A program made the translations under genes and the position numbers. From the NCBI GenBank assembly GCA_020850315.1, contig JADZEY010000068.1:1-38800 (forward strand): a stretch of 38,800 nucleotides of DNA, read 5' to 3'. The notes below the pieces were generated by a model. It was not told the origin of the DNA and did not search any database. It was given only the letters and a program-made list of their open reading frames with translations. The stretch's first letter is position 1, and each line of letters begins with the position of its first letter. Origin of the DNA: Armatimonadota bacterium (GTDB lineage: Bacteria > Bacteroidota > Ignavibacteria > OLB7). Below, piece by piece: positions 20,389 through 34,481 of this stretch.

Positions 20389-20479
20389 GAATGTCGAGTG
20401 AAAAGTGAAAAAACGAACAACGAAGAACTTCTTCGCTAATGACCAATGACCAATGACCAATGACCAATGACTAATCACC
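20389..20479. repeat. Seven-base-period tandem repeat array
   Basis: Four perfect back-to-back copies of CAATGAC (20444-20471) are flanked in the same 7-base register by TAATGAC, TAATCAC and, further left, two copies of AGTGAAA (20397-20410) plus degenerate heptamers. The array fills the gap between the amidohydrolase-like gene and the GNAT gene and runs through the GNAT stop codon (20471-20473). Confidence 0.85.
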
Positions 20480-20998
20480 AACAAGCCGTTTGGAAAGGAT
20501 CACGCTTCGGTAGTTGGTGACATCCCACTGGACGTATTCGATAAACCGGAAGCCAAGCCGCTGATACCACTGGCGGAGATGTTCGGCGGGTTCGGCGGTG
20601 TCCAAGGCAAGCTCGGTGGCACCAAGTGTTCGCGCTTCTTCTTCGGCCAACCGCAGCATCTGCAGCCCGATGCCCTGGCCTTGCAGCCCCGGCCTAACCG
20701 CAAACTGCCCAAAGTGAAAGACCGTTGGCTTGCGATACCACGGCGTAGATGAGGCTGGATAGGGGCCATAGAGTGTCAGCGTTCCAACAATCGCTTCCCC
20801 CTGCCGCGCTACAAACGTACGGACTCCGCTGGTTATACGGTCAAGCGTTACGGATTCATCTTGGTGGGTGGCCAGGAATCGCAACCCCATCCGCGCCAGC
20901 TCCCCGTAGGCTTCATGCAGCAGCGCGGTGAGTTGGCTGATGGAGTCGCCGGGGTGGTAGTGGCGGATGATGATGTTTTCTGGTGTTACGCCGTTCAT
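20471..20998 (-). CDS. GNAT-family N-acetyltransferase
   Basis: A 175-residue GNAT acyltransferase. The acetyl-CoA binding block is seen as GQFAVRPGLQGQGIGLQML (about residues 97-115), followed by ALDTAEPAEHLRQWYQRLGF, the usual closing helix with W/Y-x-x-x-G-F. The substrate is unknown. The ATG at 20998 overlaps the TGA of the upstream kinase-like gene in an ATGA, which both fixes the start and indicates translational coupling. The stop codon lies inside a 7-base-period repeat array, so the last residues (VGD) may have been shaped by the repeat. It is cytosolic. Confidence 0.88.
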   Translation of the reverse strand: MNGVTPENIIIRHYHPGDSISQLTALLHEAYGELARMGLRFLATHQDESVTLDRITSGVRTFVARQGEAIVGTLTLYGPYPASSTPWYRKPTVFHFGQFAVRPGLQGQGIGLQMLRLAEEEARTLGATELALDTAEPAEHLRQWYQRLGFRFIEYVQWDVTNYRSVILSKRLVGD

Positions 20999-22939: not shown

Positions 22940-22950
22940 GGAAGGAAATC

Positions 22951-22992
22951 GGTTGCCAGTGAACGGTTGCCAGTGAACGGTTGCCAGTGAAC
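22951..22992. repeat. Three perfect tandem copies of a 14-bp unit
   Basis: GGTTGCCAGTGAAC occurs at 22951-22964, 22965-22978 and 22979-22992 without gaps, followed by a degraded GGAACGG. It sits 12 bases upstream of the AAC(3)-like ATG, in its presumed promoter/leader. Fourteen is twice the heptamer period seen at 20389-20479. Confidence 0.95.
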
Positions 22993-23052
22993 GGAACGGT
23001 GAGTATGGATAGCGGAGGAGAGATCGCCCTCATTTTTCTCTGGTCGGGAGCG

Positions 23053-28297: not shown

Positions 28298-29503
28298 CTA
28301 CTCCACCCCCTCCACCATCGTGTTGTTTACCGACTCCAACGCAATCCGAACGTCATCGCGAAGCTCGGGGTGGTTGATGGTTTTTAGTTGGGATAGATAC
28401 GGCTGCAACGATGCTATTTCGCCACTGGTGTTCACCACTGCGCTGCAGTAGCCTCGCCATGCTTGCACGTAGTATCGCCCTGCCTGGTCTCCTCCATGCT
28501 CGGATAGAAACGCAGCAATGATATCGTATCCACGATCCACCCCGATGTCCCCCAAGATCTGCAGCACATCCCCCATCACCTCTGGCTCCAACGGTTCTTT
28601 CAGATACAGCGCCAGCACTTGCGCGGCGGTGTCGCCGTACTCAATCAGCTCGTGGCCCGCGCTGAAATCCCCGGCCACAAGCGCGGCGGCAAGCTGGCGA
28701 ACGCGGTCAACGTTGCGGCGGTCGTAGTGGGCAACAATGTAGGCCCCAAGCTGCGTGCTGGCAAGCTCGGGCATCATGAAGTTTTTGTACATCCCGAACA
28801 ACGCCTCGCCCAATCCAACCTCGAAAATGTGCAAATGCCACAGCCGAATCCGAACCTCGCGAAGCAACTGGCCGGAGTCGGAAAGGATCGGAGCAGTTGT
28901 CAGTGGTTTCTTTGAAGCAGCCGGGGGCGCGGCAATGGTTGCTGCCGAACCAGTTGCGGCGGAATCATCCACAATCGTTGGGTTGGTTGGCGCGGGGTTC
29001 TCGTCGGTATCTTCCGGCGTTTCTCCCGGTGCAGTTGCTGCTTCGTTCTCTTGCTCAGTTTCATCACCTTCGTTTGCTGCTTCTTCCTGCTTCTCCTCTT
29101 CCTCCTGCTCCTCCTCTTCTTCCTCCTTAATCAGCCCTTTCTGCAGGGCCTCGTATTTCTTCACGTACAGCCATGTAAGGTATCCGTCGCGGTCGCTTTC
29201 CAAGATGTCGGCGTGGCCAACCACATGTATTTCGGTGGCACGCAGGCCAATGGCCGAAAGCATCACGGTGTTGACCAACGCCTCCTCCTGCTGGTGGATT
29301 CCGTTCAGATGGTGGCTGATGTCGGGCAAGGGGGCATACAGGTCGTTCACCACTTCGGGGTCAAGCTCAATCACGCGGTCGTACACGGCAACCATGTAGC
29401 TGTGCTGAAGCGCAAGGTTATGCTCCATCACAAACTTGCCAAGCCCGTACATCCGGCCACGAAGTGGGAACAGGAAGATGTCGCCAATCTGAAAATCGCT
29501 CAT
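28298..29503 (-). CDS. Protein with Imm26-like N-terminus, acidic linker and helical repeat C-terminus
   Basis: A 401-residue protein of unknown function. Residues 1-45 begin FQIGDIFLFPLRGRMYGLGKF, similar to Imm26-type small domains (GDIF.IPL..G.YG.G); this is suggestive, not certain. Residues ~125-200 are a very acidic, Glu-rich low-complexity stretch (EEEEEEQEEEEKQEE and Asp/Glu/Thr repeats) then a Pro/Ala/Thr linker. Residues ~205-401 are helical, with a HEAT-like look (VMGDVLQILGDIGVDRGYDIIAAFLSEHGG). No signal peptide or membrane segment, so it is cytosolic. It lies 102 bases downstream of uvrC on the same strand. Most of the gap is a palindromic repeat. Confidence 0.65.
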   Translation of the reverse strand: MSDFQIGDIFLFPLRGRMYGLGKFVMEHNLALQHSYMVAVYDRVIELDPEVVNDLYAPLPDISHHLNGIHQQEEALVNTVMLSAIGLRATEIHVVGHADILESDRDGYLTWLYVKKYEALQKGLIKEEEEEEQEEEEKQEEAANEGDETEQENEAATAPGETPEDTDENPAPTNPTIVDDSAATGSAATIAAPPAASKKPLTTAPILSDSGQLLREVRIRLWHLHIFEVGLGEALFGMYKNFMMPELASTQLGAYIVAHYDRRNVDRVRQLAAALVAGDFSAGHELIEYGDTAAQVLALYLKEPLEPEVMGDVLQILGDIGVDRGYDIIAAFLSEHGGDQAGRYYVQAWRGYCSAVVNTSGEIASLQPYLSQLKTINHPELRDDVRIALESVNNTMVEGVE

Positions 29504-31724: not shown

Positions 31725-33332
31725 TCACCGCAAGGACTCCTCGGCAATTTTTTCGGCGGTGCGGCGCAGAACATCACTCACCATCTCCACATCCTCGGTA
31801 TCGAACAGCCGCACCCCAACATGTTCGGTTGGCAGCACAAACCGGATTCCGGCCCCGGCCCGTTTTTTGTCGGAACGCATGGCGCGGATCATCGGCTCGG
31901 CAGGAGGAATCGGAGCGGAGCGGAGCGTGAACGGAAGCGCGGAAGCGATAATCGAATCGCGCCGCTGTGGGCTGATGTCGCCAATCAGCCGGGCCATCGT
32001 GGCGGCGGCAACCAGCCCAAACGCAACTGCTTCGCCGTGGGCAAAGACACCCGGCGCGGCCGATTCCAGCGCGTGGCCGAAGGTGTGGCCCAAGTTCAGC
32101 GACATCCGCAGCGAAGCATCGAACATATCCCGCTCCACAACATCCATTTTTGTGGCAATGCTCAGGCGGATCACCTGATCAAGGTTTGCGGGGATCTGAC
32201 CTTCCAGAATCGCCGGAGCAGCTTCGGCAGCGGCGCCGGCAAGCTCTGCCGAGTTCGCGATTCCCATCTTGACCGACTCCACAAATCCCGACCGCAACTC
32301 ACGCAGGGGAAGCGACCGCAAGAACGCCCCGCAGACCAACACATCGGTTGGCTGGCGGATGGTCCCCACAAGGTTTCGGATTCCCGCAACGTTGATTGCG
32401 GTTTTGCCGCCAATGGCCGCATCCACCTGGCCAAGCAGTGTTGTGGGGATGTACACGCAAGCAATCCCACGCATAAACACCGATGCAAGAAACCCTGCAA
32501 CATCGGTGACAACGCCGCCACCAATCCCAACCACCAGCGAATCGCGTGTGAAGCCCGCCGCAGCCAACGATTGGGCAAACTCCTCAACAATCTTGAACGT
32601 TTTCGATTGCTCCCCTGCTTCGATTCTCAGCACCAGATGTTCGCTTCCGTCATCCAACCCCAAGTGGTCGTGATAGAGTTGGGCAACAGCAGAATCCATC
32701 ACAAACGCAACCTTCCGCCCGGCGGCAAGCTGGCGCAGGTGGCCAACCAACGGCGGCAACGCAGCGTAGCCAGTGATGGCGCAGGGCTGGCCGCTTGGCG
32801 AAGTCTGAAGCTGCCACGTTGGCCGCAGCAGCTGGTTGATCTTCTGGTTCAGGCGTTCGGCAAGTTCTTCCGGTGGGGCATCGCTTGCCAGCGTCAGTTC
32901 CGACTCCTGATACCAGCCAAGCCGTTGGCGGTACAATCGTTTCCAAGCAAGCAGCGGATCCTCTTCAAACAGCAGCGGGCGGGGCGCGCCCCCTTCCAGC
33001 CGTTCGATAGCGGTTGCAGCATCAACATCCAAAAACACCCGAATCCCTGACTCGCGGATGATGCTTCGGATCGCTGGGTCGGCAACGGCCCCCCCCCCCA
33101 AGGCAATCACTGTTGGCGATTGCTCGGCTTCCATCATCCGAAGCAACACATTCCACTCCATCCGCCGGAACGCTGTTTCGCCGTCGTGCCAGAAGATGTC
33201 CAGAATACTTTTTCCGGCCTCGGCTTCAATCTGCTCGTCAAGGTCAACAAAGGGGATGCCGCGCAGCCGTGCAAGGCATGATCCAACGGTGCTTTTCCCC
33301 GCGCCGGAAGGCCCTTGAAGCCAGATAATCAT
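31725..33332 (-). CDS. aroKB: Bifunctional shikimate kinase / 3-dehydroquinate synthase
   Basis: A 535-residue fusion of two enzymes of the shikimate pathway. Residues 1-~165 are shikimate kinase: Walker A GPSGAGKST (7-15), D30-L-D32 substrate site, GGGA (79-82) and RPLL near 118. Residues ~175-535 are 3-dehydroquinate synthase: GEQSKTF, GGGVVTDVAGFLASVFMRG, PTTLLGQVDAAIGGKTAIN, then ESVKMG, LNLGHTFGHALE and HGEAVAFG with the zinc ligands (Glu and two His). Kinase (step 5) and synthase (step 2) are often neighbouring genes; here they are one protein. It overlaps aroE by 4 bases (ATGA) and so is translated with it. Cytosolic. Confidence 0.96.
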   Translation of the reverse strand: MIIWLQGPSGAGKSTVGSCLARLRGIPFVDLDEQIEAEAGKSILDIFWHDGETAFRRMEWNVLLRMMEAEQSPTVIALGGGAVADPAIRSIIRESGIRVFLDVDAATAIERLEGGAPRPLLFEEDPLLAWKRLYRQRLGWYQESELTLASDAPPEELAERLNQKINQLLRPTWQLQTSPSGQPCAITGYAALPPLVGHLRQLAAGRKVAFVMDSAVAQLYHDHLGLDDGSEHLVLRIEAGEQSKTFKIVEEFAQSLAAAGFTRDSLVVGIGGGVVTDVAGFLASVFMRGIACVYIPTTLLGQVDAAIGGKTAINVAGIRNLVGTIRQPTDVLVCGAFLRSLPLRELRSGFVESVKMGIANSAELAGAAAEAAPAILEGQIPANLDQVIRLSIATKMDVVERDMFDASLRMSLNLGHTFGHALESAAPGVFAHGEAVAFGLVAAATMARLIGDISPQRRDSIIASALPFTLRSAPIPPAEPMIRAMRSDKKRAGAGIRFVLPTEHVGVRLFDTEDVEMVSDVLRRTAEKIAEESLR

Positions 33333-34396
33333 TGATGCTTGAGATGGTGTTGAAGAAGGTTGTGCAGCTCCGCCGGATCCACCGTGATGCCAGTCCAGAG
33401 CCTGAATGATTCGGCAGCTTGCCCGGCAAACATACGCAGCCCGTTTGTGGCGGGAATCCCGGCCCGGTTGGCCGCAGCCACCAGCGGGGTGATGGTGGGG
33501 CGGTAGATCATGTCGTAGAAAAAACCGTGAGTTCCCTCACCCCCCCGCCCCTCTCCCGGGGGGAGAGGGGAGCCAGAGCCAATGTCACTATCGCCGAACA
33601 GAGGGGAGCCAGAGCCAATGTCACTATCGCCGAACAGAGACGAGCCAGAGCCGATGTGAGTATCGCCGAACAGAGACGAGCCAGAGCCGATGTCACTATC
33701 ACCGAACAGAGACGAGTCAGAGCCGATGTCACTATCACCGAACAGAGGCGAGCCAGAGCCAATGTGAGTATCGGCGGGGGAAGGTGTGTTGGAGGTGAGG
33801 TCAGAGCTGAGGTGAACTGGCAGGCCGACTGGGGTAGCGTTAATCAGCAGATCGGCGGTGGCAATGGATCCGAGTTGGGCGGGGATCACTCGTGCATCGT
33901 TCCAGTAGGCGGCTTCGCTGGCGGCGCGTTGCTGGCTGCGGGAGTACATGGTGAGTTGGCGAAGGTTCGCGAAGGCAAGCAGAACATGGATTGCAGCCCG
34001 TGCCGCGCCCCCGGTCCCCAACACCGCAGCGGTGAACGGTTGGTTGCTTCCGGGCAGCTTGTCCACAGCAGCAAGGGCCCAACGGAAGCCGGCAACATCA
34101 GTGTTGAAGCCAATGGCCTTTCCATCGCGGAACAGCACGGTGTTCACCGCCCGAACACGCTCGGCAAGGGGGTCCAGTTCATCCATCATGGTGAACAGAA
34201 GCTCCTTGTGGGGTGAGGTGACGTTGGCCCCGGCATATCCCCCCTGTTTCATCATTGCCAGCGCGTCGGGAAGCTCCGCCGCTGCAACCGGAAAAAGGCT
34301 GTAGGCAAAGGGGAGCCGATGCTGGCCGAACAGGTGGTTATGCAGAAATGGAGAGAGCGAGCCGCCGATATGCTGGCCCAGAAGAACGATGTTCAT
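33329..34396 (-). CDS. aroE: Shikimate dehydrogenase with a 36-bp tandem repeat insertion
   Basis: A 355-residue AroE (step 4, 3-dehydroshikimate to shikimate, NADPH). Recognisable parts are GGSLSPFLHN (shikimate site), NVTSPHKELL with catalytic Lys, N-T-D (GFNTDVAGF), the nucleotide loop VLGTGGAARA and NATPVGLP. Directly after that follow about 90 extra low-complexity residues (six imperfect copies of a 12-residue GDSDIGSGS.LF unit and SPLPPGEGRGGEG) before the normal HGFFYDMIYRP.ITPL segment and the C-terminal helix. Without the insert the protein is the usual ~265 residues. The frame is open throughout. ATG at 34396 is used (a TTG two codons upstream is possible). It is coupled to aroKB by an ATGA overlap. 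Confidence 0.93.
   Translation of the reverse strand: MNIVLLGQHIGGSLSPFLHNHLFGQHRLPFAYSLFPVAAAELPDALAMMKQGGYAGANVTSPHKELLFTMMDELDPLAERVRAVNTVLFRDGKAIGFNTDVAGFRWALAAVDKLPGSNQPFTAAVLGTGGAARAAIHVLLAFANLRQLTMYSRSQQRAASEAAYWNDARVIPAQLGSIATADLLINATPVGLPVHLSSDLTSNTPSPADTHIGSGSPLFGDSDIGSDSSLFGDSDIGSGSSLFGDTHIGSGSSLFGDSDIGSGSPLFGDSDIGSGSPLPPGEGRGGEGTHGFFYDMIYRPTITPLVAAANRAGIPATNGLRMFAGQAAESFRLWTGITVDPAELHNLLQHHLKHQ
33548..33570. repeat. GC-rich palindrome inside aroE
   Basis: A perfect 10-bp inverted repeat, CCCCTCTCCC (33548-33557) and GGGAGAGGGG (33561-33570), with a 3-base loop. It borders the 36-bp tandem repeats and encodes the SPLPPGEGRGGEG part of AroE. CCCTCTCCC-type palindromes are a common small repeat type in bacterial genomes. 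Confidence 0.9.
33571..33773. repeat. 36-bp in-frame tandem repeat array in aroE
   Basis: Units beginning AGCC/AGTCAGAGCC start at 33571, 33607, 33643, 33679, 33715 and 33751, exactly 36 bases apart; the sixth is partial. They are contiguous, without spacers. Copies differ at a few sites, such as TCACTATC versus GTGAGTATC and GAGGGG versus GAGACG. Each adds 12 residues to AroE, keeping the reading frame. Confidence 0.97.
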
Positions 34397-34481
34397 CAAC
34401 AAGGATGTGGCGCGGAAAAAGTAGGCAGGTTGTTGTGGGGCAATATACGTTCAATTCGCTACTGGCAATTCGCCGTGGGGG

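Follow-up and report, generated by a model that had tools for sequence, protein, structure and literature searches.

A REP-like palindrome lying in frame in aroE and a 36-bp tandem array that probably grew from its edge

The occurrence of a 36-bp tandem array inside a gene for shikimate dehydrogenase raises the question of where such a repeat comes from and what becomes of the enzyme that carries it. The window analyzed here is the whole stretch of 38,800 nucleotides from contig JADZEY010000068.1, and the gene concerned, aroE, is a minus-strand ORF at 33329–34402. Both the substrate-binding and the C-terminal domain of AroE were recognized in it by Pfam (Shikimate_dh_N, PF08501, 1e-21; SDH_C, PF18317, 8e-9), and AroE structures in the PDB were matched by sequence as well as by the core fold. 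The likely start is the ATG at 34396 (MNIVLLGQ...), giving a product of 355 aa. The neighboring gene on the same strand (31725–33332) encodes a fusion of shikimate kinase and 3-dehydroquinate synthase, aroK-aroB (SKI 4e-35, DHQ_synthase 1e-41, DHQS_C; Pfam), and the two genes share the 4 bp ATGA at 33329–33332, where the aroE stop and the start of the fusion overlap. The shikimate kinase part of the fusion contains a run of 11 C at 33089–33099 (G in the coding strand, coding GGGA), which might allow slippage or mislead sequencing.

The array spans 33570–33773 on the minus strand (204 bp; TRF period 36, 5.7 copies, 91% matches, 0 indels, score 317) and is the top-scoring tandem repeat of the window. 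Its units, 12 codons each, start at 33571, 33607, 33643, 33679, and 33715, with a partial one at 33751, and read ADTHIGSGSPLF, GDSDIGSDSSLF, GDSDIGSGSSLF, GDTHIGSGSSLF, GDSDIGSGSPLF, and GDSDIGSGSPLP in coding sense. The first-pass annotation, made from the letters of the sequence, had described units at exact 36-base intervals that add 12 residues each, in frame, between the NATP-G and DM-Y segments of AroE, and had named a fused aroK-aroB as operon partner; all of this was borne out. The units have diverged from each other by several amino acid changes (S-D/T-H, G/D, and P/S), and the T-H form is found in units 1 and 4, which would point to repeated exchange within the array and not to one burst. 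As the array exceeds the length of typical short reads, its exact copy number is uncertain and the number of units in this short-read contig may be wrong; an assembly artefact as the main cause was nevertheless rejected and is highly improbable, since the diverged units stand in register without loss of frame and pass into intact aroE on either side. The 36-bp unit had no match outside the array, either elsewhere in this genome (G000) or in its congener (G001), and was rejected as a dispersed repeat on that ground. Other short tandem repeats detected by TRF in the window were AATGACC (6.3 copies, 20438–20481), CGGTTGCCAGTGAA (3.2 perfect copies, 22950–22994), and CTTCTTCCTGCTTCTCCT (2.7 copies, 29080–29128).

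The insert comprises more than the array. In coding sense, its last unit runs into CCCCTCTCCC-CCC-GGGAGAGGGG and then CGGGGGGGTGAGGG (33534–33578), and these bases make up the 3' part of the insert. They form an unstranded palindromic element, CCCTCACCCCCCCG-CCCCTCTCCC-GGG-GGGAGAGGGG-AGCCAGAG, which abuts and overlaps the array and encodes GSPLPPGEGRGGEG within AroE. A pattern search for the palindrome core (≤ 2 mismatches) returned seven copies in G000 and three in G001, and the backward-pattern control returned none in either genome. The palindrome is dispersed, with copies both between and inside genes, and two of the seven copies in G000 lie clearly within conserved genes, in frame. The second of these places (G000:C14, L047 5203–5247) has 45 bp identical to the aroE palindrome, in frame in the gene of a 1051-aa DUF4062/TPR protein, yet no 36-bp array. 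Sequence comparison links the two repeats: the 36-bp unit holds AGAGGGGAGCCAGAG, which at C14 forms the outermost 15 bp of the palindrome, and which in aroE occupies 33564–33578 and again 33600–33614.

Several further observations concern the surroundings of these palindromes. A CATCAG microsatellite (four copies) adjoins the DUF4062/TPR copy (L047 5151–5247), and three more palindromes of the family lie within about 900 bp of each other at L047 2513–3432, adjoining A/G-rich tracts that TRF calls short tandem repeats. A few other palindromes are themselves tandemly repeated, e.g., as 42-bp (14-codon) units in an ORF of L199. Single-stranded folding of the aroE region was no better than that of composition-matched shuffles (z = −0.36), and a DNA hairpin stability above chance was accordingly rejected.

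The congener G001 has neither the aroE insert nor that of the DUF4062/TPR gene. On the two sides of the insertion site, the AroE of G001 shares 76% and 94% identity with the present one, and the segment from NATP-G to DM-Y measures 33 residues there vs. 106 here; the same segment has 22–30 residues in 29 other AroEs, none of which carries the insert. The ortholog of the DUF4062/TPR protein is 92% and 79% identical in its flanks, with 2 residues at the site vs. 29 here. An in-frame insertion facing an empty ortholog site was found for aroE and the DUF4062/TPR gene (both against G001), as well as for GltX of another genome (G062, described below). Being absent from G001, the two inserts appear to be confined, within the genus, to this lineage; loss from G001 would be the strict alternative, and the more distant AroEs also lack the insert in aroE. 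ACTCAC flanks the aroE insert on both sides and is present as a single copy in G001, a pattern that is ambiguous as to a target duplication of the MITE kind, as CTCAC could be the element's own outer arm.

Taken as one history, a REP-like palindrome would have been inserted in frame in a loop of AroE, and its edge would then have been amplified to the tandem array. We regard this account as probable, and insertion followed by tandem duplication of the right edge would be the simplest way to connect palindrome and array. The main competitor is an independent minisatellite that arose first in aroE, with the palindrome entering its end later or being unrelated to it. About 21 bp of the 36-bp unit, i.e., more than half, is not palindrome sequence, and tandem arrays were not significantly more frequent beside palindromes (6 of 126 sites) than at control sites (12 of 536; p = 0.11), both of which fit such a separate origin. 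We nonetheless consider it unlikely, given that 15 bp of every unit match the edge of the palindrome at a locus without a 36-bp array and that palindrome and array are absent together in G001. The array described by the first-pass annotation stands as a real in-frame expansion of a loop but, being tied to the inserted dispersed palindrome, does not stand alone as a minisatellite.

The consequences for the enzyme were assessed with an AlphaFold model (30 AroE sequences), in which 232 of the 355 residues, forming the core, reach a pLDDT of 90 or more, and the insert (residues 214–287) falls below 50 between two core strands (183–186 and 292–295). A fold search returned AroE crystal structures. 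Relative to G001, aroE is under purifying selection, with dN/dS values of 0.21 in the part preceding the insert and 0.11 in the part following it; these values span the time since the split of the two genomes and not only that since the insertion. Because of these low flank values (0.1–0.2) and the intact predicted core, AroE is probably functional, with the insert as a tolerated disordered loop, in agreement with what had been proposed from the sequence at the outset; the statement that the insert has no counterpart in other AroEs was likewise upheld, for the AroEs examined, by the segment lengths given above. A single gene scores above the Pfam cut-off for the AroE N-domain, though G000 and G001 each also have a weaker AroE-like paralog, so that aroE need not be essential. 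Following the NATP-G strand as it does, the loop could plausibly lie near the nucleotide pocket.

Two functional readings of the insert can be weighed against these data. It could be a real additional domain of AroE, as an in-frame part of a gene on which purifying selection acts; it is however missing from G001 and the 29 other AroEs, is predicted to be disordered, and has a sub-threshold, low-complexity Drf_FH1 hit as its sole Pfam match. An extra conserved domain was consequently rejected, with next to no probability left for it. Alternatively, the array could be a selected repeat whose copy number varies and tunes AroE activity between strains. Units of 36 bp preserve the frame at any copy number, and intragenic repeats of E. 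coli tolA are reported to vary by strain and to affect stress tolerance (PMC3477136). Against this, the units differ by several amino acid changes with no sign of constraint in the small sample, and the insert is predicted to be disordered and is absent from the congener, which makes tuning very unlikely.

The favored history, i.e., palindrome insertion with later growth of its edge, may be spelled out as follows. After the split from G001, a dispersed REP-like palindrome of the type CCCTCACCCC-N-CCCTCTCCC-NNN-GGGAGAGGG would have entered aroE in frame, in the surface loop that joins the NATP-G and YDM strands. Slippage during replication, or else unequal exchange, would then have copied the right edge of the palindrome, AGAGGGGAGCCAGAG, along with some 20 bp next to it, resulting in the 5.7 diverged units. 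We infer this order, since no aroE is known that has the palindrome and lacks the array. Since five of six frames are open in the palindrome, and since the loop sits between two core strands, the resulting AroE would keep a normal core and gain an unstructured loop of some 75 residues, presumably neutral and retained because it is tolerated.

A stricter pattern was used to see how far the palindrome extends beyond this genome. Of 294 genomes belonging to the class, 41 contained it (backward control 0), as did 7 of 118 sampled across the phylum, including one outside the class. A 33-bp palindrome query also matched 334 plasmid records, largely from enterobacteria, at up to 97% identity; Klebsiella, Azospirillum, Citrobacter, Enterobacter, and others are represented, which could reflect either common descent or convergence. 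Among 129 distinct copies, 100 are open in five of the six frames, so in-frame insertion would be easy, and 40 fall within ORFs of 150 codons or more that leave 40 or more codons on each side, although some of these ORFs are surely spurious. A mobilizer of the Y1/RAYT kind was rejected: no PF01797 hit was obtained in G000, and no palindrome was found within about 1.5 kb of any of 12 Y1 loci in other genomes.

The palindrome peptide lies inside a single Pfam domain in GltX, HsdM, an AMP-binding enzyme, and a histidine kinase. In GltX of G062 (L183), the peptide PSPPTPLPKGEG is inserted, with the element at ORF residue 278; three of four relatives (L304–L307) lack it (G018, G027, and G036), and the fourth has LSSQERGQGGE at the same place, apparently a decayed palindrome copy to judge from its sequence. 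G062 has a second GltX-like gene, about 39% identical. In CysRS (L163, G129), the peptide occurs at ORF residue 327, separating the catalytic from the DALR domain. It recurs in type I restriction-modification genes (HsdM in L176 and L165, HsdR-like in L201, HsdM-like in L285), with two copies within the N6_Mtase domain of the L176 HsdM. In several genomes, palindrome peptides were seen inside YPNPFNP-type C-terminal tails (L161, L164, L167, and L287) that are similar to the sorting domains of type IX secretion. In two different genera (L166 and L168), a primase-like protein has the peptide at about the same place, which could reflect either one old insertion common to both or repeated targeting.

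Rickettsia is the best-known source of coding palindromes. The present data describe a second, differently built family that enters AroE, GltX, and CysRS in frame, and they provide a natural series of an empty site, a bare insertion, an apparently decayed insertion, and an expanded insertion, with which one can study how dispersed DNA repeats turn into parts of proteins and what size of added loop an enzyme can bear. A broader reading, which we hold only tentatively, is that a single palindrome family with the fixed motif CCCTCACCCC-CCCTCTCCC-GGGAGAGGG might have spread through the class and beyond, in frame in housekeeping genes, making disordered loops that can seed minisatellites, and might thus constitute an RPE-like protein-decorating system outside Rickettsia with a mobilizer of its own. 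In the open-access literature, to which the search was confined, the 20 best-ranked of 119 papers matching the palindrome DNA motif included no relevant one, and its peptides yielded only two unrelated plant papers.

Among known systems, PARCELs share with the aroE insert tandem repeats within ORFs, DNA with dyad symmetry, and a patchy distribution; they are, however, 25-residue amphipathic motifs in ORFs without assigned functions, many of them membrane-targeted, whereas the aroE unit is a 12-residue, low-complexity sequence in a cytosolic enzyme. The intragenic tandem repeat of E. coli tolA, for which strain polymorphism and a phenotype are reported (PMC3477136), is likewise an in-frame repeat inside a conserved gene; the aroE array differs in being tied to an inserted palindrome. 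GTAG/CGTC REPs are palindromes of 20–40 bp, mostly intergenic, with some inside genes including those of tRNA synthetases; in some cases they are clustered and encode long peptides (PMC3733652). The present family is similar in lying partly inside genes, tRNA synthetases among them, but neither a GTAG nor a CGTC tag was found at the ends of the aroE copy (33530–33580), and no linked Y1 transposase was found. Rickettsia palindromic elements (RPEs), about 150 bp long, are palindromes inserted in frame in genes (PMC10969869). In the same way, the element described here is a dispersed palindrome that occurs in frame in unrelated conserved genes and leaves a working-looking protein with an extra peptide; compared by description, the shared element is shorter (about 45 bp), its host belongs to a different phylum, and its aroE insert has grown a tandem array. 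By analogy, the palindrome seems to work like RPEs and intragenic REPs without necessarily belonging to either, and the aroE case would be an in-frame palindromic insertion in a core enzyme with secondary tandem growth, of a kind already known from RPEs and REPs.
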